From assembly GCA_021768625.1 (NCBI GenBank), contig JAETUM010000023.1:1-42260 (forward strand): DNA of 42,260 nt. Direction: 5' to 3'. A program made the translations under genes and the position numbers. The notes beneath the pieces are model-generated. The model was given only the letters and a program-made list of their open reading frames with translations, made no database searches and had not been told where the DNA came from. Positions 951 to 32,078 of the stretch are shown here, in pieces. Origin of the DNA: Candidatus Stoquefichus sp. (GTDB lineage: Bacteria; Bacillota_I; Bacilli_A; Erysipelotrichales; Coprobacillaceae). Numbering within the stretch: the first letter of the stretch is position 1; every line of letters begins with the position of its first letter.

Positions 951-1013
951 AAAGAGAGAAGGATTTCATATTTAACCTTTTCTATACTTCTCTCTTTGAC
1001 TATTAAGGAGGAG
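951..1013 (+). promoter_or_regulatory. Leader hairpin competing with the EIIB ribosome binding site
   Basis: AAAGAGAGAAG (951-961) is perfectly complementary to CTTCTCTCTTT (987-997) around a 25-nt loop. The start of the 3' arm, CTTCTC, can also pair (one G-U) with GAGGAG at 1008-1013, which is the ribosome binding site. The two pairings exclude each other, so the leader could switch between open and masked translation. The hairpin is seen directly; the switch is inference. Confidence 0.35.
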
Positions 1014-1019
1014 ATAATA

Positions 1020-1322
1020 ATGAAAATTTTATTAGTATGTAATGCTGGAATGTCAACAAGTATGCTTGTTGCTCGAATGGAGAAAGCAGCAAAAGAAAAA
1101 GGAGTCGATGCAACAATTTTAGCAGTACCATTAACACAGGCAGAATCTGAAATGAATGAGTGGGATATTGTTATGCTTGGACCACAAGTAAGACATTGTC
1201 TCAATCAATTACAAAAACATTCTAAAGGAACTCCAATTGAAGTTATAGATATGAGAGACTATGGTTTGATGAATGGTGCTAATGTTTTGAAAAGGGCTAT
1301 TCAAGTTATTGGTTTAAAATAA
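1020..1322 (+). CDS. PTS lactose/cellobiose-family EIIB component
   Basis: A 100-aa cytoplasmic EIIB of the lactose/chitobiose/cellobiose PTS family. EIIB proteins take phosphate from EIIA onto a cysteine and pass it to the sugar bound by EIIC. The phospho-accepting Cys7 lies in the expected P-loop-like turn LLVCNAGMSTS after beta-1, and the family's DIVMLGPQV strand follows. The start is fixed by AAGGAGGAG at 1005-1013 with a 6-nt spacer; an in-frame ATG at 945 lies upstream of the predicted transcript start. First gene of a tight operon with rbsD-like, acetyltransferase, EIIB-ROK and PHP genes. No EIIC or EIIA is present in the window, so it is either served by components encoded elsewhere or has become a regulator. 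Confidence 0.9.
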   Translation: MKILLVCNAGMSTSMLVARMEKAAKEKGVDATILAVPLTQAESEMNEWDIVMLGPQVRHCLNQLQKHSKGTPIEVIDMRDYGLMNGANVLKRAIQVIGLK

Positions 1323-1343
1323 AAAGTATGTGAGGAAATGAAT

Positions 1344-1814
1344 ATGAATAAACGTATTTTAAATGAAAGACTGGCTGCCATAATAGCAAGCTTAAGACAT
1401 GGTGAAATGATATTTATTGCGGATGCTGGAAGTGGAACTTCATCAAAGGCTATATATCCGTTAGATTCTAGTGTAGAATATCTAGATTTAGGAGTTGTAA
1501 CAGGTTCTCCTAGCTTTAAGGATGTTTTTATGACTCTAGTTGAATGTGGTGATTTTGAAGGTGCTATTGTAACAGAAGATATGATTGAAATGAATCAAAA
1601 AGACTTTCAATTTATTAAGGAAACCTTTGATACAAAAAATATTCATGTATCACATTATATTCCTGAATATTATCAGTTACGTGATCGATGCAAAGCAGTT
1701 ATTCAAACAGGAGATTATGGTATTCATGCACAGGCTATTTTAATTGCAGGATATTCAAGTGCTGATATTCCTATGGATTGGTTAAAGAAAGGATTAAAAA
1801 AAGGTCATGAATGA
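1344..1814 (+). CDS. RbsD/FucU family sugar mutarotase
   Basis: A 156-aa member of the RbsD/FucU family, cytoplasmic enzymes that interconvert pyranose/furanose forms or anomers of ribose and fucose. The family's N-terminal pattern is clear: LNERLAAIIASLRHGE carries the catalytic-type His (about residue 19), and IADAG has the conserved Asp (about 27). LDLGVVTGSPSF and the C-terminal KAVIQTGDYGIHAQAIL match the rest of the fold. ATG 1344 is preferred over ATG 1338 because TGAGG at 1331-1335 lies only 2 nt from 1338 but 8 nt from 1344. Its stop overlaps the next gene's start by 8 nt, indicating translational coupling. The actual sugar cannot be read from the sequence; the neighbours suggest a phosphotransferase-type sugar rather than ribose transport. 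Confidence 0.85.
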   Translation: MNKRILNERLAAIIASLRHGEMIFIADAGSGTSSKAIYPLDSSVEYLDLGVVTGSPSFKDVFMTLVECGDFEGAIVTEDMIEMNQKDFQFIKETFDTKNIHVSHYIPEYYQLRDRCKAVIQTGDYGIHAQAILIAGYSSADIPMDWLKKGLKKGHE

Positions 1815-2367
1815 AAAAGAAAAAATGTTATCAGGTCAATGGTATGATGCGAATTATAATCCAGAGCTTGTCGAACAAAGATATCATTGCTTTGATTTAT
1901 GTTTTGAATTAAATCAAATAAAACCTAGTGATATAGAAAAGAAAAATGAAGTTATTCAAAAGATTATGGGTTATTTGCCACAAGGATTAGAGATAGTAAC
2001 ACCATTTTCATGTGATTATGGAACAAATATTCATTTAGGAAAAAATGTATTTATAAATATGAATTGTTATTTTATGGATGGTGCGACTATTGCTTTAGGA
2101 GATCATGTATTCATTGGACCATATTGTGGCTTTTATACAGCAAGCCATCCAATAGATTATCAAAAAAGAAATCAGGGACTAGAAAAAGCTTTACCTATTA
2201 AGGTAGGAGATAATTGCTGGTTTGGAGCTAATGTTTCTGTTATGCCAGGAGTGATTATTGAATCAGGATGTGTTATTGTAGCTGGGAGTGTTGTGACTAA
2301 AAATATAGAATCAAATTCTTTGGTAGCAGGAGTTCCAGCACGTGTGATAAAAAAAATTAAGCAGTGA
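1807..2367 (+). CDS. Sugar O-acetyltransferase, maltose/galactoside (NodL/LacA) type
   Basis: A 186-aa left-handed beta-helix acetyltransferase. The N-terminal mac domain (MNEKEKMLSGQWYDANYNPEL) is followed by hexapeptide repeats. The catalytic His is in YTASHPID, the motif shared by galactoside and maltose acetyltransferases, and the coenzyme-A loop region GDNCWFGANVSVMPGV and the C-terminal VAGVPARVIKKI are complete. Full family length. It transfers acetyl from acetyl-CoA to a sugar hydroxyl, often regarded as detoxification of sugars that cannot be metabolised. The start overlaps the end of the upstream mutarotase gene. Within this operon it probably modifies the same sugar, but specificity is unknown. 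Confidence 0.9.
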   Translation: MNEKEKMLSGQWYDANYNPELVEQRYHCFDLCFELNQIKPSDIEKKNEVIQKIMGYLPQGLEIVTPFSCDYGTNIHLGKNVFINMNCYFMDGATIALGDHVFIGPYCGFYTASHPIDYQKRNQGLEKALPIKVGDNCWFGANVSVMPGVIIESGCVIVAGSVVTKNIESNSLVAGVPARVIKKIKQ

Positions 2368-2379
2368 TGGGGGATAAAA

Positions 2380-3801
2380 ATGGATGAATTTTTAAAGGAA
2401 ATTCATACACAATTCTTTAAAAAGTGGATATGCATGCAGGTGGATGAGAGATATAAGGTATATATAGATGATAAATATCAGGATGTAATTTATATAAAAA
2501 CCAAATATGGACAAGGAGAGATAACTTTTAATCCATTAAATATCATTGAATTAAAAGTTACAAATAAAATAACAGAAGAAGTTGATTTTTATCTTCATTT
2601 TCAAATGGAAACAATAAAACATGCTGTAGAACTATTTAGTGAAATGATAGAAAGTATTATCAATTTATCAAATAGGCTTATTACTAAAGTATTATTGAGT
2701 TGTAGTGGAGGTTTAACAACTGGCTTCTTTGCTCAAAGAATTAATGAAGTTGTTCAATTATTAGGCTTAGATTTAAAAGTTGATGCAATAGGATATAATC
2801 AGTTATTTCAGGTTGCAAACAACTATGATATTATATTATTAGCACCTCAAATCTCTTATTTGCATGCAAAGATTCATGATATTCTCAAAGATCAAATAAT
2901 TATCAATATACCACCGCAAATCTTTGCAAAATACGATGTTGGAAAAATTCTTTCACTTATAACAGAAGCAAGTGAACATAAAAATAAAATAGAGAATATT
3001 GATGCAAATAAAGAATTATTCCATTTGGATATTAATGATACAAGAAAAATATTTTGTTTAACTATTTTTAAAAATAAAACACACGTTCATATCTCCTATC
3101 GTTTGTTTCAAAAGGGTAAGATTATTTTAGATAATGAGATTATTAAATCTAATATATCTATTCAGGATATATATGATGTCTTGGATACAGTTATCTTACA
3201 ATATCCAGATGTGACAATGATAGGAATAGCTATTCCAGGGATTATTCATAATGGGCTTTTATCATCTTCGTATATTAAAGACATAGAAAATAATGAAATA
3301 GAGAAGGCTTTTACAAATCGCTATACACAAAAAATACTTATTAGCAATGATGTAAACGCAGCAGCAGTAGGATACTATGTATCTCAAGAGAAGTATCATA
3401 CATTTATGTTTTTGTTTCAGCCAATTTCTTTAGGGGCTGGATCTGGCATAATCATTGATGGTAAATTGATGAGTGGTTCTCATAACTTTGCGGGTGAAGT
3501 TTTATATTTGCCTTTAAATTTATCTCAAGATAAATCAGAGCTTAATTGTACACCTGAAGGAACATTAGAGTTAGTTTGTAAAACAGCGTTATCTTCAATG
3601 TGTATAATTGATCCACAAGCAATTATATTATTTAGTGATTTAATTACAAATGTTGAGGAATTAAGAAGTGAAATAGAGAAAATTGTTCCTCAAACATTTA
3701 TTCCTGAAATTATAAAGGTTGATAATGTATTAGAATACATTCTTTTAGGACAAATGGTTTTATGTACACAATGGAAGGGGGAGATATTAAATGTTTTGTG
3801 A
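2380..3801 (+). CDS. Fusion: unknown N-domain + PTS EIIB-like domain + degenerate ROK domain
   Basis: A 473-aa three-part protein. Residues 1-98 are an unrecognised alpha/beta region. Residues about 102-195 are an EIIB-like domain: KVLLSCSGGLTT keeps a Cys (108) at the phosphocysteine position, and DIILLAPQIS matches DIVMLGPQV of the EIIB gene upstream. Residues about 222-440 are a ROK (sugar kinase/regulator) fold: GIAIPGII, SNDVNAAAVGYY with the catalytic-type Asp324, and GAGSGIIIDG. The first phosphate motif DxGxT is missing (IFCLTIFKNK stands there), and after AGEVLYLP the GHxxxxxxxxxCxCGxxGC zinc motif is not recognisable. I therefore infer a sensor or regulator rather than an active kinase, although no DNA-binding domain is evident. 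It lies between the acetyltransferase gene and an overlapping PHP gene. Confidence 0.75.
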   Translation: MDEFLKEIHTQFFKKWICMQVDERYKVYIDDKYQDVIYIKTKYGQGEITFNPLNIIELKVTNKITEEVDFYLHFQMETIKHAVELFSEMIESIINLSNRLITKVLLSCSGGLTTGFFAQRINEVVQLLGLDLKVDAIGYNQLFQVANNYDIILLAPQISYLHAKIHDILKDQIIINIPPQIFAKYDVGKILSLITEASEHKNKIENIDANKELFHLDINDTRKIFCLTIFKNKTHVHISYRLFQKGKIILDNEIIKSNISIQDIYDVLDTVILQYPDVTMIGIAIPGIIHNGLLSSSYIKDIENNEIEKAFTNRYTQKILISNDVNAAAVGYYVSQEKYHTFMFLFQPISLGAGSGIIIDGKLMSGSHNFAGEVLYLPLNLSQDKSELNCTPEGTLELVCKTALSSMCIIDPQAIILFSDLITNVEELRSEIEKIVPQTFIPEIIKVDNVLEYILLGQMVLCTQWKGEILNVL

Positions 3802-4633
3802 TTATCATGTGCACACACAATTCAGTGATGATAGTGAATATGTGATGGAAGATGTGATTAAAGATGCGCTCCAATTAAATATGGAGGAAATTTGTTTTAC
3901 AGATCATGTAGATTACGGAATCAAAGTTGATCAAGAAAATTTGACAGAAAAAGAAATCATAGAATTATCTAGAGGACGTGAATTAGCACCATTGAATGTT
4001 CATTATCCACAATATTTTCAAGAAATAAATCGTTTAAGAAAGATTTACCCTCAAATAACAATTAAACAAGGAATGGAATTTGGAATACAAACACATACAA
4101 TACCTATGTTTAAAAAATTATTTAATCATTATGACTTTGATTTTATTATCTTATCTTGTCATCAAGTAGAGGATAAAGAATTTTGGACACAAGATTTTCA
4201 AGAAGGTAGAACACAAAAAGAATATAATGAAAGGTACTATCAAGAAATATTAGAGGTGATACAAGATTATAAAGATTATAGTGTGTTAGGACATTTAGAT
4301 TTAATCACAAGATATGATGAAGCTGGTATTTATCCTTTTGAAGATATTAAAGAAATTGTCACAAAGATATTAAAGATTGTGATTAAGGACGATAAAGGGA
4401 TAGAAGTCAATACATCATCTCATCGTTATGGATTGAAGGATTTAACACCATCAAGAGATATTTTGGAATTATATAAAGAATTAGGTGGAAAAATTATTAC
4501 TATTGGTAGTGATACACATCAAAAAAATCATCTTGGTGCGTATATTGAGGAAACAAAAATAGAATTAAGAAAATTAGGATTTGAATATTATTGTACATTT
4601 GATAAAATGAAACCTATTTTTCATATATTATAA
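3791..4633 (+). CDS. PHP-domain phosphatase, histidinol-phosphatase-like
   Basis: A 280-aa PHP-family phosphoesterase of the HisK/HisJ type. The metal-binding H-x-H (DYHVHTQFSDDSE), FTDHVD, the Glu in GMEFGIQ, SCHQVEDKEFW, GHLDL and the C-terminal GSDTHQ are all present, so the trinuclear metal site looks intact. The start is set by GGGGGAG at 3777-3783 with a 7-nt spacer, overlapping the upstream gene by 11 nt. There are no histidine biosynthesis genes here. Its place at the end of a sugar operon suggests that it dephosphorylates a sugar phosphate or related ester, although a true histidinol phosphatase misplaced in another operon cannot be excluded. Confidence 0.85.
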   Translation: MFCDYHVHTQFSDDSEYVMEDVIKDALQLNMEEICFTDHVDYGIKVDQENLTEKEIIELSRGRELAPLNVHYPQYFQEINRLRKIYPQITIKQGMEFGIQTHTIPMFKKLFNHYDFDFIILSCHQVEDKEFWTQDFQEGRTQKEYNERYYQEILEVIQDYKDYSVLGHLDLITRYDEAGIYPFEDIKEIVTKILKIVIKDDKGIEVNTSSHRYGLKDLTPSRDILELYKELGGKIITIGSDTHQKNHLGAYIEETKIELRKLGFEYYCTFDKMKPIFHIL

Positions 4634-4635
4634 AT

Positions 4636-4657
4636 AAGCCAACTTATATGTTGGCTT
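4636..4657. terminator. Bidirectional terminator between sugar operon and rpiR-like gene
   Basis: AAGCCAAC and GTTGGCTT form a perfect 8-bp stem around TTATAT. It sits 2 nt after the PHP stop codon and touches the stop of the convergent regulator, so it can serve both strands. The U-tract is short. Confidence 0.7.
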
Positions 4658-5493
4658 TAGTCAATATAATGATTAATTTTATGATTAAGATGTTTTTCAT
4701 AATCTCTATTAAAAAAGCATGCATATATACAATCTAATAAATATTGTAAAGAAATACGTGATGAAAAAGAAGCGATTTTTTCTTCTGAATCTTCATAAGA
4801 AGAAAAATACAAATGATAATCAACATATTTTGCAAAAGGAATTTGAAGTGTTGAAGAAATGAGTATCATAGTGATTTCCTTTTCTTTTAATGTTTTGATG
4901 ATCTCTTCAAGATAAGTTGTTCTTCCTGCATAGCTGATAATCATGACAACATCACCTTTTTGGCATGATTGAGCATGCCAATGTTGATAGAAATGTTCTT
5001 TAACAACTTCAATTCTTACTCCAATTTCTAACATATTTTGTTGAAAACTTTCTGCCATAAAATAATTCCCAATAGATGGAAACACAATGATATTTTCAGC
5101 ATTATACAATGTTTGAACAACCTTTAGAAAAACATCTAAATCTATTAAGTTAAAAGTTGATTTTAATGTTTGATCATAAAGGGATAGCATTTTACTCATA
5201 ATTTGATGATGTGTATTATGTCTATGAAAAGGATAGTTATAATCAACATCATGATTTTCATCTTTTAGATTTTCTAACTGTAATGAAATTTGAATCTTTA
5301 GTTGATTAAGACCTGATAATTCTAATTTCTCTATAACTCTATAAATTGTAGAAGTAGAAACAAAACTGCTTTTTGCAAGCTGCTGGAGATCAAGTTGAAC
5401 AATATCATGGGGACGAGCTAAAATATATTCTGCAAATATTTTTTCTCCTTCTGTAAAATTTGTTGTTTCTTTAATCTTTGTAAAAATATTCAT
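4657..5493 (-). CDS. RpiR/MurR family transcriptional regulator (HTH + SIS)
   Basis: A 278-aa regulator. Residues about 1-77 form the RpiR-type helix-turn-helix (FTEGEKIFAEYILARP, then LAKSSFVSTSTIYRVIEKLELSG). Residues about 110-240 form a SIS sugar-phosphate-binding domain (NIIVFPSIGNYFMAESF; GDVVMIISYAGRTTYLEEII). Such proteins sense phosphosugars and control sugar catabolic operons. It is convergent with the EIIB-PHP operon and divergent from the PfkB kinase gene, so either or both are likely targets. A 12-bp palindrome in the divergent gap (5565-5576) is a possible operator. Confidence 0.9.
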   Translation of the reverse strand: MNIFTKIKETTNFTEGEKIFAEYILARPHDIVQLDLQQLAKSSFVSTSTIYRVIEKLELSGLNQLKIQISLQLENLKDENHDVDYNYPFHRHNTHHQIMSKMLSLYDQTLKSTFNLIDLDVFLKVVQTLYNAENIIVFPSIGNYFMAESFQQNMLEIGVRIEVVKEHFYQHWHAQSCQKGDVVMIISYAGRTTYLEEIIKTLKEKEITMILISSTLQIPFAKYVDYHLYFSSYEDSEEKIASFSSRISLQYLLDCIYACFFNRDYEKHLNHKINHYID

Positions 5494-23788: not shown

Positions 23789-26700
23789 ATGGGAGTCTTG
23801 AAGAAAAATTTGTTATTATTATTTGTCGCTTTTTGTATGGTGGTTGGTTATATCACTCCAGTTATAGCAGAAAGCTCATGGAGTTTTGAATTAGACGATG
23901 ACATGATAAAAACAGGATATACAACTGTATATAATGATACGAAACCATCAGAAGTTCCTTCAGCAAAGATAGGTTTGACAATTCATGATTCATCACTAGG
24001 AAGTGATTATAATATTTCATTATTAAATTGTTATCAAAAGGTTATTGATGAAGTTAAAAGCACAGGTATTATTAATTCTAAGGATCAACATATTGAATTA
24101 GAAATACCATCGCTATTAAAGGCAGGAGAGTATTATGTTCAGGTTAATATTGATAATGAAACAAGAGAACATAAAATCATGCTTTTAGAAAATGTAAATT
24201 TGCAAAGTCAGATTTCTTCAACGATTGTAGGAAGTGCAGGGCCATTATCCAATTTATGTGATGAGTTAAAATGGTCTGTATATACTCCAAAAGCTAATCA
24301 GCCAACATATGATCACCCAACAGAGTTTATTTTTAATTATGGAAATGATGAAATAAATATATCAATGATTGACTTATACTCTTGTTTTGGACCAGAACAA
24401 GGAATAAAAGAAGGAGAATTTTATTACTGGAATAGTCATAATAATCAATGGGAACTCATAGAAATTGATGGAAAAACAAGGCATACATTTCAATGGGAAA
24501 ATGGTGAGCTATCTCAGTTAAGCTTTCAATTTGATAAAGAATATCAAACAAATCAACTAAAGTTAAAAGCTTTGGATTCGAATGTTGTATGGGAAAATAC
24601 GCTTAACTTAGTTGAAGTTCAAGTGTGGGGATATTCGCCTCAAAAAGAGTGGACTTTAAGAGTAGAGAATCCTTTTGTGAAAGTTGGAGATGTAGAAGTT
24701 TATAAAGATACAAAACCTGCAACTTCACCAGATACAAAAATGAACTTGTTTATTAATAATGCAGATACTCAATTAGAGTATGAAGTTTCATTACTAGATT
24801 CTCATAAAAATGTTATTCAAAATATAGGAAGTACTGGAATTATTCGATCAGCACATGAAGAAATAGAATTGACATTGCCATCAAGTCTTGAGGGTGGAGA
24901 GTATTATATTCAAGTAGATATTGATGGAAACATAAAAACAGAGAAAATAGTTATTTTAAATAATATTAACTTAAATAGTTCTATTAGTGCAAATATTGTA
25001 GGATATAGTGGAATGTTAAGTGATTTGATAGATAAATTACAATGGGCGATATATACACCAATTTCTAATAGACCTACAGAAGATAATCCTGCAGATATTA
25101 TATTTGATTATAAGGATAGTATTATGCAAGTACAATCACTTGATTTGTATTCATGTTATGGGCAGGGGCAAGGACCTAAGGTTGTAGAGTTTTATTATTG
25201 GAACTCTTTACTTAATCAATGGAATGAAATTTTAATCAATGGAAAACATAAACAAAATCTAACATGGAAAGGCGAAGAGTTAGAAAAAATTGAATTTCAA
25301 TTTGATAAAGCTTGTGAGACATCAAAGATAAAGATGTCGGTTACTGATTCTTATACAGAATGGGAGAATACAAATGATATTGTAGAAGTACAGGCATGGG
25401 GTTATAAAAAAACCGATATTCCATCAGTAGAATTAGAACAAACAAGTGGAGTATATGGACAAGAAAATATTGTTAGTATTTTAGTAAAAAATGGAAATGC
25501 TCAAGAAGATATTTCATTTGAATTAGTAGATGCTAAAACACATGAACCATTAAAACAACCAATAAAATATACAAAGAAATTTGAAACAGATGATATACAA
25601 TATTCTTTTGTGATTCCAAAATCAGTGCAAATTGGAGAATATAAAATTCAAGTGAAATCTAATACATTCAATTTATTATCTGAAAACTATACAATAACAT
25701 ATGATCAAAAAGTGAATTATGAAAATTGTAAAGAATATATCAATATTTCTGTATTAGATCAAAAAGAATATCAAAATACTCAATATATGGTTGATGGAAA
25801 TTATAAGAATACTTGGGCTATTTCAGGTAAAGATAATGTATCTCTTATTTTAGAGGTTAAACCAGAAAATAATATTTATGCACATATTGTATTGGATAAA
25901 GTGAAGGTATATGCTGATAAAGATAATATTGATTCTGTAACTTTGAAGTGTATTAATCAAAGTAATTATTATAAGAATGTTAATATTGATGAAAATGGAA
26001 GAGTTTCAAATCTTGTTGAGAATCTAAAAGTTGATTGGCGTAATGATAGTCATGGAGATTACTTTTTGATAGAACCTAACCATTTAACAATGGCAAATAT
26101 ATTTGTTTTGGATATTAAGACAAAAGATAAACAAAGTGATTTAAGTATTCATGAGATAGATATAGAAGGTCTTCATCTTAGTGAAAATATTTTATCTGAA
26201 GCAAAGGTCTCATTAAATGGTAAAAATATTGATTCTTCTGATATGGTAGACTTTGATATACAAACATTTTATAAAACAAAGAAAGGAGAAAATGATGAAT
26301 ATGTCTTTGACTTTTCTCCAAGAACTATAACAACAAATGAATTATTATATACTGCTCATTATCCTAAGTCACAAGGGATTTCTAAAGTAAAGATAGAGAT
26401 TTTTAAAGATAATCAATGGAAAGAATTAGGAATCTATTCTATGAATTATAAAACTGATAGTGAGATAAGAGAGTCCTATCAATTATTATTTGATCAAATC
26501 ACTACAGAAAAAATAAAATTAACAGTTTTATCTGCAAATACAGTTTGGGATGATTCTTATTTATTTACTGATATAAATATGATAGGAAAAATAAATGAAA
26601 ATGCTCAATATATTGTAGATAGCTTAGATAAAAATATTGTTATTGATCAAGGTGTCACAAAATTCCCATTCCCAATTGTTAAAGAGGGATATAAGCTTTC

Positions 26701-28309
26701 TATATATTCAAGTGACAATGAAGATGTTATTGGATTAGATGGCAAAATAACACCACCAAAGAAAGATACATATGTTCATATTCAATTAAAAGCAACATCA
26801 AAAGATGGTGATATTGGAATAAGCGATACAATAAAGGTTTTTGTACCTAGAGGCGTTTTGAATGGAAATCATTTGATTTCAACAGAATATGATGAAACAA
26901 CAGTTTATAACAATCCTGCTATGGGATGGGTACAATATTATGAATTCCAAGATACTGATGTTAACAAGTATTGGGAAGAAATGGATAAGCTTTATAAAGA
27001 AGGATTGAAGACAAATATTCTTTATATAAGAAATCCTTGGAGTTGGTATGAACCTGAAGAAGGAAAGTATGCATGGGAAGATCCAAATAGCCATTTGAGT
27101 CAATTAATAGCGGGAGCAAGAAAACGAAAGATACAGTTGGCATTTAGAGTATTATTGGATTCTACAGACTGTTTCCAACAATGTACACCAGAATATGTAT
27201 TTGGTGCAGGTGCACAATGGTATGAATCTGATCATACAGACCCTACTGCTCCAATAATTGATGCTAAAGATCCATATATTAATGATCCTATTTTCTTAGA
27301 AAAATTAGATACTTTTGTTAAAGCTTTTGCTGCTGAATTTAATGATGATCAAGATATTGCATTTATTGATGGTATGGGATTTGGGAACTGGGGAGAAACA
27401 CACCATGTCAAATACCTTGAAAAATATGATGATAATGTTTATGATGCTGTAGAAAAAATTGTCAAAATATACAATGCCCATTTCTCAGATGTATTATTAG
27501 GAGCACAAGAAGGACAACCTGAAAACTATGGGAATGAAACGTTTGATGGATATAAAGATACAGATTATCCATATACAGGAGCATATGATAAAAAATATGA
27601 TTTTGTTGTTCGTCGTGATACGTTTGGATGGATGAATGATAGTATTAGAAATCAAGTTATTGAATGGTTTAATAAAGGTATACCTGTTTACGCTGAAAAC
27701 TGTTATCATTCTTTTGAGGTAAGAGAATATTGGTATAACAATGCAGGATATCCAACATTAGATGGTATTTTGAAACAGGTTGTGAGTGATGCACTCACTT
27801 GTAGGGCGAATACTTTGGATGCTCGTATTGTTATGGATTGTCAAAGTTGGTTAAAAAATGATCAAGAAAATGGTTCAAATTTATTAAATCAGTTTGCATT
27901 AAATGGAGGTTATCGTTTGGCTCCAACAACAATAGAATTACCTCGATCAGTAAAAGTTGGTGAGAATGTAAACATCACATCTGCTTGGAGAAATTATGGT
28001 GTAGGTATATTGCCAAATAAGAATAAACACTGGAGTCAAAAGTATAAAGTCGCATTTGCTTTATTAGATGAAAAAACAAATGAAGTGGTTTATCAATATA
28101 ATGTTGCAAGTAATCAAATTGATCCAGGGGATTGGTTATTAGAGAATGGAAACTATCGTTATGATACGACTTTTACGATACCATCTTCTATGAAAACTGG
28201 AAAGTATAAATTAGCTCTTGCTATTGTCAATGAAAAGAATAGTTATTTACCTGAGATTAATTTAGCAATTAAGAATGCTGATTTAACATCAGATGGTTGG
28301 TATATTTGA
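23789..28309 (+). CDS. Large secreted glycoside-hydrolase-like protein (DUF4832-type C-terminus), frameshifted before its wall anchor
   Basis: A 1506-aa protein with a signal peptide (about 1-27, ending PVIAES). Two tandem repeats of about 255 residues follow (about 31-286 and 288-540; compare TTVYNDTKPSEVP with VEVYKDTKPATSP, and EFYYWNSHNNQW with EFYYWNSLLNQW), each ending in a discoidin-like segment. Then come an Ig-like stretch and further discoidin-like segments to about 940. A TIM-barrel-like region (about 1025-1385) starts NNPAMGWVQYYEF, with WYEPEEGKYAWED and GFGNWGETHH, where Glu1203 is the likely acid/base. A beta-domain (about 1390-1500) like DUF4832 closes it. I infer a carbohydrate-active enzyme on the cell surface; the substrate is unknown. 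The frame stops at TGA 28307, one base out of phase with a wall-anchor sequence. Confidence 0.75.
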   Translation: MGVLKKNLLLLFVAFCMVVGYITPVIAESSWSFELDDDMIKTGYTTVYNDTKPSEVPSAKIGLTIHDSSLGSDYNISLLNCYQKVIDEVKSTGIINSKDQHIELEIPSLLKAGEYYVQVNIDNETREHKIMLLENVNLQSQISSTIVGSAGPLSNLCDELKWSVYTPKANQPTYDHPTEFIFNYGNDEINISMIDLYSCFGPEQGIKEGEFYYWNSHNNQWELIEIDGKTRHTFQWENGELSQLSFQFDKEYQTNQLKLKALDSNVVWENTLNLVEVQVWGYSPQKEWTLRVENPFVKVGDVEVYKDTKPATSPDTKMNLFINNADTQLEYEVSLLDSHKNVIQNIGSTGIIRSAHEEIELTLPSSLEGGEYYIQVDIDGNIKTEKIVILNNINLNSSISANIVGYSGMLSDLIDKLQWAIYTPISNRPTEDNPADIIFDYKDSIMQVQSLDLYSCYGQGQGPKVVEFYYWNSLLNQWNEILINGKHKQNLTWKGEELEKIEFQFDKACETSKIKMSVTDSYTEWENTNDIVEVQAWGYKKTDIPSVELEQTSGVYGQENIVSILVKNGNAQEDISFELVDAKTHEPLKQPIKYTKKFETDDIQYSFVIPKSVQIGEYKIQVKSNTFNLLSENYTITYDQKVNYENCKEYINISVLDQKEYQNTQYMVDGNYKNTWAISGKDNVSLILEVKPENNIYAHIVLDKVKVYADKDNIDSVTLKCINQSNYYKNVNIDENGRVSNLVENLKVDWRNDSHGDYFLIEPNHLTMANIFVLDIKTKDKQSDLSIHEIDIEGLHLSENILSEAKVSLNGKNIDSSDMVDFDIQTFYKTKKGENDEYVFDFSPRTITTNELLYTAHYPKSQGISKVKIEIFKDNQWKELGIYSMNYKTDSEIRESYQLLFDQITTEKIKLTVLSANTVWDDSYLFTDINMIGKINENAQYIVDSLDKNIVIDQGVTKFPFPIVKEGYKLSIYSSDNEDVIGLDGKITPPKKDTYVHIQLKATSKDGDIGISDTIKVFVPRGVLNGNHLISTEYDETTVYNNPAMGWVQYYEFQDTDVNKYWEEMDKLYKEGLKTNILYIRNPWSWYEPEEGKYAWEDPNSHLSQLIAGARKRKIQLAFRVLLDSTDCFQQCTPEYVFGAGAQWYESDHTDPTAPIIDAKDPYINDPIFLEKLDTFVKAFAAEFNDDQDIAFIDGMGFGNWGETHHVKYLEKYDDNVYDAVEKIVKIYNAHFSDVLLGAQEGQPENYGNETFDGYKDTDYPYTGAYDKKYDFVVRRDTFGWMNDSIRNQVIEWFNKGIPVYAENCYHSFEVREYWYNNAGYPTLDGILKQVVSDALTCRANTLDARIVMDCQSWLKNDQENGSNLLNQFALNGGYRLAPTTIELPRSVKVGENVNITSAWRNYGVGILPNKNKHWSQKYKVAFALLDEKTNEVVYQYNVASNQIDPGDWLLENGNYRYDTTFTIPSSMKTGKYKLALAIVNEKNSYLPEINLAIKNADLTSDGWYI

Positions 28310-31127: not shown

Positions 31128-32078
31128 GTGGAAATTACAACACCAATATCAGAACATATCAGTTATGTTTACCAAAAGGCATCTTATGATGTAGCTTGTA
31201 AAAGACTTCTTTCTTTTAAGATTATATTAGCGTATATTTTAAAATATTGTATAGATGAATTTAAAGATATTGATGTTAATGAAATTGCTGAATATTATAT
31301 AGAAGGTTATCCACAAATATGTGAGTCAGCAGTTCATGTGAATCATTCAGATTATATTATTTCAATGAATAATGAAGATAGTACTTTTGATGAAGGAACA
31401 ATATATTATGATATTATTTTTTATGCTATTGCACCTTATAATGGCGAATTAATTAAGTTATTACTAAATATAGAAGCACAAAATGATTTTTATCCAGGTT
31501 ATCCACTTATTATGAGAGCGATTTATTATGCCTGTCGAATGATATCTGCACAATATGGGAAAGAATTTACGAAAGCTAATTATAATCAGATAAAGAAAGT
31601 CTATTCTATTTGGATATGTGCAAATCCACCAAAAACAAAAGAAAATACAATCACAAAGTACGAAATAGAAGAGAAAAATATTGTTGGTTATATGAAAGAA
31701 AAGAAAAACTATTATGATTTAATGACAGTGATTATGATATGTTTGGGAACACCACAAGAAAATATAGAGGGTGGTGTATTGAGGTTATTAGAAGTTTTAT
31801 TATCAAATAAGAGAGATGTTGAGGAAAAAAAGAAAATTTTAGCTACTGAATTTCATATTAAGATGAGTGAAGATATAGAAGAGGAGGTTATGAAAATGTG
31901 TAACTTGAGTGAAGGAATTGAGAGAGAAGGCATAGAGAAAGGACTTTATCAAGGGATAAAAAATATTATGAAAAATCTTCATTTAGATAGTAGTCAAGCG
32001 ATGGAAATATTGGGAATATCAAAAGAAGATTATCCAAAGTATAAAGATATGTTAGAAAGAATGAATGAGATATTATAA
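31128..32078 (+). CDS. Rpn-like PD-(D/E)XK nuclease family protein
   Basis: A complete 316-aa member of the same broad family as the gene at the window's left edge. Core residues: Asp in YYDIIFYAIAP, then E-x-Q in LLLNIEAQND, followed by YPLIMRAIYYACRMI. The C-terminal tail, EGIEREGIEKGLYQGIKNIMKNL, ends with DSSQAMEILGISKEDYPKY, the same helical module as in the first copy. GTG 31128 is used as start (AAGAAGGA upstream). It has its own promoter and a perfect stem terminator. Annotated elsewhere as transposase or Rpn nuclease; no inverted repeats flank it, so there is no sign here of a mobile unit. Confidence 0.8.
   Translation: MEITTPISEHISYVYQKASYDVACKRLLSFKIILAYILKYCIDEFKDIDVNEIAEYYIEGYPQICESAVHVNHSDYIISMNNEDSTFDEGTIYYDIIFYAIAPYNGELIKLLLNIEAQNDFYPGYPLIMRAIYYACRMISAQYGKEFTKANYNQIKKVYSIWICANPPKTKENTITKYEIEEKNIVGYMKEKKNYYDLMTVIMICLGTPQENIEGGVLRLLEVLLSNKRDVEEKKKILATEFHIKMSEDIEEEVMKMCNLSEGIEREGIEKGLYQGIKNIMKNLHLDSSQAMEILGISKEDYPKYKDMLERMNEIL

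Follow-up and report, generated by a model that had tools for sequence, protein, structure and literature searches.

The gene at positions 2380..3801 (+) of the window, the whole 42,260 nt stretch of a Candidatus Stoquefichus contig analyzed here, joins an N-terminal domain, a PTS EIIB domain, and a degenerate ROK domain in one 473 aa protein (ORF, Pfam, and AlphaFold2 model). We establish here its domain content, its missing catalytic features, its kinship with HTH-bearing ROK repressors (HTH-ROKs), and the split and adjacent gene arrangements of its relatives. Judged from these sequences, there is about an even chance that the fusion is a PTS phosphorylation-responsive co-regulator (an anti- or co-repressor), i.e., a non-enzymatic PTS-linked sensor. 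The protein would probably signal whether sugar uptake is in progress.

Domain content of the fusion protein

The ORF is preceded by a G-rich ribosome-binding sequence and overlaps the downstream PHP gene by 11 nt. Pfam identified PTS_IIB (PF02302) at residues 103-176 (E 3.1e-7, 31.4 bits vs. a cut-off of 23.6) and ROK (PF00480) at residues 249-383 (E 1.6e-16, 61.1 bits vs. a cut-off of 22.9), with no match within residues 1-100. A PDB sequence search with the fusion protein resulted in hits to EIIB(Cel) (2l2q, E 7.7e-8) and ManNAc kinases. The full-length AlphaFold2 model, built on 70 homologs (pLDDT 89.3, pTM 0.75), has three parts: an N-domain (residues 1-95, 2380..2664, +; AlphaFold2, Foldseek, and Pfam), an EIIB-type domain (residues 102-201, 2683..2982, +; PF02302, 2l2q, and the model), and a ROK fold (residues 223-464, 3046..3771, +; PF00480, Foldseek, and alignments). 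The last two are separated by a flexible, low-confidence linker (residues 202-222, 2983..3045, +), where the pLDDT is 51 for residues 201-210, 68 for 211-220, and <50 at 206-210. The Pfam matches and the model confirm the joined EIIB and ROK architecture proposed in an initial annotation made from the sequence alone.

The features of EIIB membership are present, i.e., a PF02302 profile match, a Cys after the first strand, and an alternating order. The predicted domain runs β-α-β-α-β-α-β-α and Cys108 (codon 2701-2703) ends β1 in the motif C-S-G-G-L-T-T, a strand/helix order that agrees with the EIIB fold anticipated at residues 102-195. No EIIB structure is among the best 50 Foldseek matches listed, so the fold assignment rests on sequence profiles and secondary-structure order. 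The domain is like the lactose/cellobiose PTS EIIB (PF02302) in fold and Cys motif, but it is one domain within a larger protein, and the single EIIBs of the same genome read like C-N-A-G-M-S-T at the motif. Cys108 is found in 29/29 full-length homologs gathered by similarity search without a Cys pattern. It is also present in 70/70 rows of a second alignment (A3), a count that is circular and not independent evidence because these loci were fetched by a pattern containing that Cys. The claim of an EIIB-like domain with its phosphocysteine at Cys108 is thus upheld by the above-cut-off PTS_IIB match, the 2l2q match, and the 29/29 count. With Cys108 invariant, an EIIB profile match, and EIIB neighbors at some loci, coupling of the fusion to PTS phosphorylation is plausible.

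Foldseek with the C-terminal part resulted in hits to ROK kinases and ROK repressors (best E 5e-14), including Mlc, the Mlc/EIIB complex (3bp8), and MecR2 (4ija). The best E-values are to ROK kinases. Pfam detects ROK at E<=0.01 in 69/70 homologs, and the modeled fold is a shortened ROK. The DxGxT motif at the first β hairpin is found in no homolog of either alignment (the 70 rows of A3 and the full-length set of 29). The segment after GE(x)GH, where the Cys-rich zinc motif would lie, is shortened and has no conserved cysteines in the homolog alignments; this stretch, which follows G372-E373 in the fusion, is longer in the ROK kinases of its own genome. Both features had been called missing from the window protein, and they are absent across the family. 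Asp324, initially listed as retained, is kept in the window protein but not throughout the family (D in 55/70 homologs, N in 13/70). N323 (69/70), N326 (66/70), P286-G287, and G372-E373 are conserved, and N323 and G372-E373 are equivalents of conserved ROK residues. We reject a role as a sugar kinase on the motif loss throughout the family.

The closest ROK domains to that of the fusion are those of NagC/XylR-type repressors (HTH + ROK). The N-terminal winged HTH of these repressors is absent from the fusion, which has the N-domain and EIIB in its place; the same degenerate core recurs in the split-form partners and in solo HTH-ROKs encoded by the same genomes (see below). In a ROK-domain tree, the split and solo HTH-ROKs cluster together with the fused ROKs adjoining, and a branch 2.1 changes per column long leads to four ROK kinases from the fusion's own genome. 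Neither the root nor the precise branching order of this tree is certain, and the kinases join inside the fused set via the long branch. Loss of the HTH is suggested by the protein layout and is not proven by the tree. Because the split and solo HTH-ROKs share the same degenerate ROK, and because an HTH-ROK gene follows the fusion gene in two Solobacterium MAGs, the ROK part belongs with repressors, not kinases, with its DNA-binding domain missing. The earlier suggestion of a sensor rather than a kinase agrees with the family-wide loss of the ATP-binding loop and zinc site, with HTH repressors as the nearest ROKs, and with the pairing of the split form with such a repressor.

The N-domain is an α-β5-α fold (helix, five strands, helix), which AlphaFold2 models alone with a pLDDT of 95. 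Its conserved residues are "LHF" (H73, F74) and H81-A82. The best Foldseek match is the TriTu immunity protein (7zhm_C, E 4e-3, prob 1.00, TM 0.55/0.60), with KhtT and secretion chaperones at weaker scores, and no DNA-binding family stands out in the Foldseek results. The Pfam TriTu family (PF24689) does not match the window protein, is weakly matched in 3/70 homologs (best E 2.3e-4), and falls below its cut-off of 27 bits in one split-form N-domain (E 0.033, 14.5 bits). An N-domain profile search of PDB sequences returned repeat-protein noise only. The modeled fold tentatively resembles TriTu. We do not claim membership in that family, and the simplest reading is a binding module, which could itself be the output of the fusion. 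An HTH concealed in the linker or N-domain is ruled out, as the linker, at ~20 residues, leaves no room for a winged helix and the N-domain fold is not an HTH.

Distribution, split forms, and gene neighborhoods

We found ~90 distinct full-length homologs, mainly in Coprobacillaceae/Erysipelotrichales with some in Selenomonadaceae, which rules out a chance domain join or an assembly artifact. The fusion's own genome has three further full-length copies (55, 43, and 34% identity). A search for the architecture, proposed with the initial annotation, shows that the same order recurs across dozens of related bacteria and is common in this bacterial family. Some part of the protein is matched at E<=1e-8 in 45/60 genomes searched as relatives. 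An even draw of the phylum gave matches at E<=1e-30 in 11/245 genomes, and 10 of these 11 belong to the same family or order. Scanning GTDB contigs with a pattern containing the Cys108 motif yielded 78 loci in Coprobacillaceae, other Erysipelotrichales, rumen Selenomonadaceae MAGs, and a few MAGs labeled Clostridiaceae or Hungatella. After removal of exact duplicates there are 93 fused and 15 short genes; two of the 15 short entries are pieces of one interrupted fusion gene (genome G034). Literature and PDB searches found no characterized protein with this domain order and no study of any member, consistent with the earlier statement that none was known. We did not find a paper in the literature that joins ROK, PTS EIIB, and this taxon.

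Tandem fused genes are found in Selenomonadaceae MAGs (L138:7980-11413 and L131:7995-10893). One tandem set includes a short N-domain+EIIB form, and one lies upstream of a beta-glucoside-type PTS permease gene. A 123 aa ORF with the N-domain lies beside EIIB and RpiR genes in the fusion's own genome (L187:3019-3390, -). Because the similarity there runs through stop codons, this ORF may be a short form that has been broken.

The protein is split in five genomes (L042, L043, L044, L045, L179). An N-domain+EIIB gene of ~200-230 aa is paired with a ROK gene of 309-337 aa that has a repressor-like N-terminal winged-HTH region, and the spacing of the two ranges from a 29 nt overlap to a 3 nt gap. 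The HTH is on the ROK partner, and the N-domain remains with EIIB. A Pfam HTH scan of the partners in L042, L043, L044, and L179 found HTH_24 in L043 and L044 with scores above its cut-off and in L179 with a score under the cut-off, with no HTH match in L042; the HTH in L042 and L045 rests on alignment with the others. The ROK domain of the partner shares 32-37% identity with the fused ROK and is missing the same motifs. These genomes commonly also encode solo HTH-ROKs of this type, most of which precede a PHP gene. Two precede an RbsD+LacA-like pair, and the same kinds of genes flank the window fusion. The order fusion, HTH-ROK, PHP, LacA-like, HAD is found on one strand in two Solobacterium MAGs (L129, L133).

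The window operon has the order EIIB, RbsD-like, LacA-like, fusion, PHP, with short gaps or overlaps. Its first gene is a stand-alone EIIB of the lactose/cellobiose type (1021..1322, +; Pfam PTS_IIB E 2.3e-22), with aggaggag before the ATG at 1021 (the mechanical ORF starts at 945). It is followed by an RbsD/FucU-like protein of the sugar mutarotase family (1338..1814, +; Pfam E 7.5e-14) and a maltose/galactoside O-acetyltransferase-like (LacA-like) protein (1807..2367, +; Pfam Mac and Hexapep). The gene downstream of the fusion encodes a PHP-domain phosphatase of the HisJ family (3791..4633, +; TIGR01856, 175 bits vs. a cut-off of 90). Our guess is that the phosphatase, acetyltransferase, and mutarotase suit the handling of surplus or non-usable sugar phosphates. 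A stem-loop (4636..4657, no strand assigned) that is terminator-like on the minus strand separates the operon from a convergent gene for an RpiR-type sugar-phosphate regulator (4657..5493, -; Pfam). Just upstream of the operon is a 14 nt inverted repeat (951..997, +; 93% complementary), a candidate operator or leader hairpin. The orthologous operon of G034 (L046) keeps the order EIIB, RbsD, LacA, fusion, PHP. No matching inverted repeat or conserved operator was obvious by eye upstream of it. Its fusion gene (L046:6952-8360, -) is the closest ortholog of the window gene (71-74% identity) and is interrupted, being split over two frames, possibly by decay or an assembly error.

At L049, L069, L075, L110, and L128, as well as in the window operon, the fusion or its short form is directly preceded by a stand-alone EIIB gene. 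Stand-alone EIIB genes make up 6/536 near neighbors of fused genes and 0/473 genes farther away. Most fused genes lack a PTS gene within 2.5 kb, and the link of the fusion to a particular PTS is weak outside this minority of loci. Given this sparse context, the fusion may act in trans or on something else. The commonest conserved neighbor of the fusion is a BrxF-like P-loop protein (13 deduplicated loci). It is encoded downstream of the fusion gene at L062:6057-6485 (-; 142 aa) and likewise at 12 other loci, and scores above the NCBIfam BrxF (BREX-3) cut-off (78.7 bits vs. 50). The window also contains two PDDEXK/Rpn transposase-kind genes, at 4-705 (Pfam PDDEXK_2 match) and 31128-32078 (judged by eye only), and a gene at 23789-28309 for a very large protein (1506 aa) whose start resembles a signal peptide and whose N-terminal part contains repeated stretches.

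Known regulators and alternative functions

In Escherichia coli, the ROK repressor Mlc is sequestered by dephosphorylated EIICB(Glc) (PMC3901232). The Mlc:EIIB(Glc) complex (PDB 3bp8) pairs a repressor ROK domain with a PTS EIIB whose phosphorylation state is the signal, as we propose for the fusion. In the fusion, however, EIIB and ROK are in one polypeptide, the winged HTH and zinc site are absent, an extra N-domain is present, and the EIIB is of the lactose/cellobiose family. EIIB(Glc) belongs to an EIIB family other than PTS_IIB. The best explanation is that the fusion would be a covalent counterpart of the Mlc:EIIB(Glc) contact. MecR2 is XylR-like, lacks a DNA-binding domain in strain N315, and is an anti-repressor by protein contact (PMC3406092). 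It shares with the fusion a ROK fold without a DNA-binding domain (N315 form) and offers a model for protein-contact action, but it has no PTS domain and acts on MecI, which does not belong to the ROK proteins. MtlR is a regulator that contains an EIIB-like domain bearing a regulatory Cys (PMC3217849). In PRD regulators such as MtlR and CelR, as in the fusion, an EIIB-like domain is part of a larger protein, and phosphorylation of its Cys matters (Cys419 in MtlR). These regulators bear DNA-binding, PRD, EIIA-like, and EIIB(Gat)-like domains, but no ROK.

The fusion might instead be a PTS-controlled regulator of enzymes or transporters, whose sugar-binding ROK modulates the PHP phosphatase, the acetyltransferase, or a transporter by contact with no role in transcription. 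This would fit the overlap with the PHP gene in the window, the fused-PHP or EIIB-fused-PHP order at L069, L077/L105, and L110, and the retention of N323 and G372-E373. Most fused genes have no PHP neighbor (8/536 near neighbors), however, and the HTH borne by the same ROK type in split and solo forms points to transcription, so we consider this reading unlikely. It is distinctly less probable that the N-domain+EIIB is the ordinary EIIB of a PTS permease, with ROK as a passenger or assembly aid. The EIIB motif is intact, and short N-domain+EIIB forms adjoin GH1 beta-glucosidase genes (L049, L050, L059), but the window and several other loci have an additional, canonical EIIB gene ahead of the fusion, many loci lack PTS genes in their vicinity, and distant homologs retain the ROK part.

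The N-domain is always present, is conserved, and stands at the usual place of the HTH in a regulator. Were it a new DNA-binding domain, the fusion would be a complete one-protein regulator that binds DNA itself. Its TriTu, KhtT, and secretion chaperone matches and non-HTH fold argue against this, as does the split form, in which the N-domain goes with EIIB and the HTH with the ROK partner; we regard DNA binding by the fusion as quite improbable. The reading of the fusion as an active sugar kinase whose ATP site is unusual has very little going for it beyond the kinase Foldseek hits and the Asp324 of the window copy: the DxGxT and zinc segment are missing in 70/70 homologs, the catalytic Asp is Asn in 13/70, and the kinases of the same genome lie on a long branch of the ROK tree.

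Proposed mechanism

If the fusion is a co-regulator, Cys108 of the EIIB domain would be phosphorylated by the EIIA of a lactose/cellobiose-type PTS, and the phosphate would be lost while the cognate sugar enters. The phosphorylation state may alter the contact of the EIIB face with the attached ROK domain. This ROK domain, of the NagC/XylR type without a winged helix, perhaps binds a sugar or sugar-phosphate and would then affect gene expression via protein contact. Most likely, the fusion would act as a co- or anti-repressor by mixing or competing with putative partners, HTH-bearing ROK repressors from its own subfamily. The presumed outcome is the tuning of sugar-uptake and sugar-handling genes. 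A more specific version is doubtful: that the fusions are a new class of PTS regulator, a phospho-EIIB permanently fused to an HTH-less repressor-type ROK that controls HTH-ROKs of its own subfamily by mixed oligomers, as a one-chain Mlc:EIIB switch with the N-domain as a TriTu-like protein-binding module.

The fusion is an instance of a repressor-type ROK domain used without its DNA-binding part. The occurrence of both split and fused forms in nature would allow direct tests of the EIIB-ROK contact. If the co-regulator reading is true, gut and rumen Bacillota would have a widespread, uncharacterized means of coupling gene control to PTS flux.
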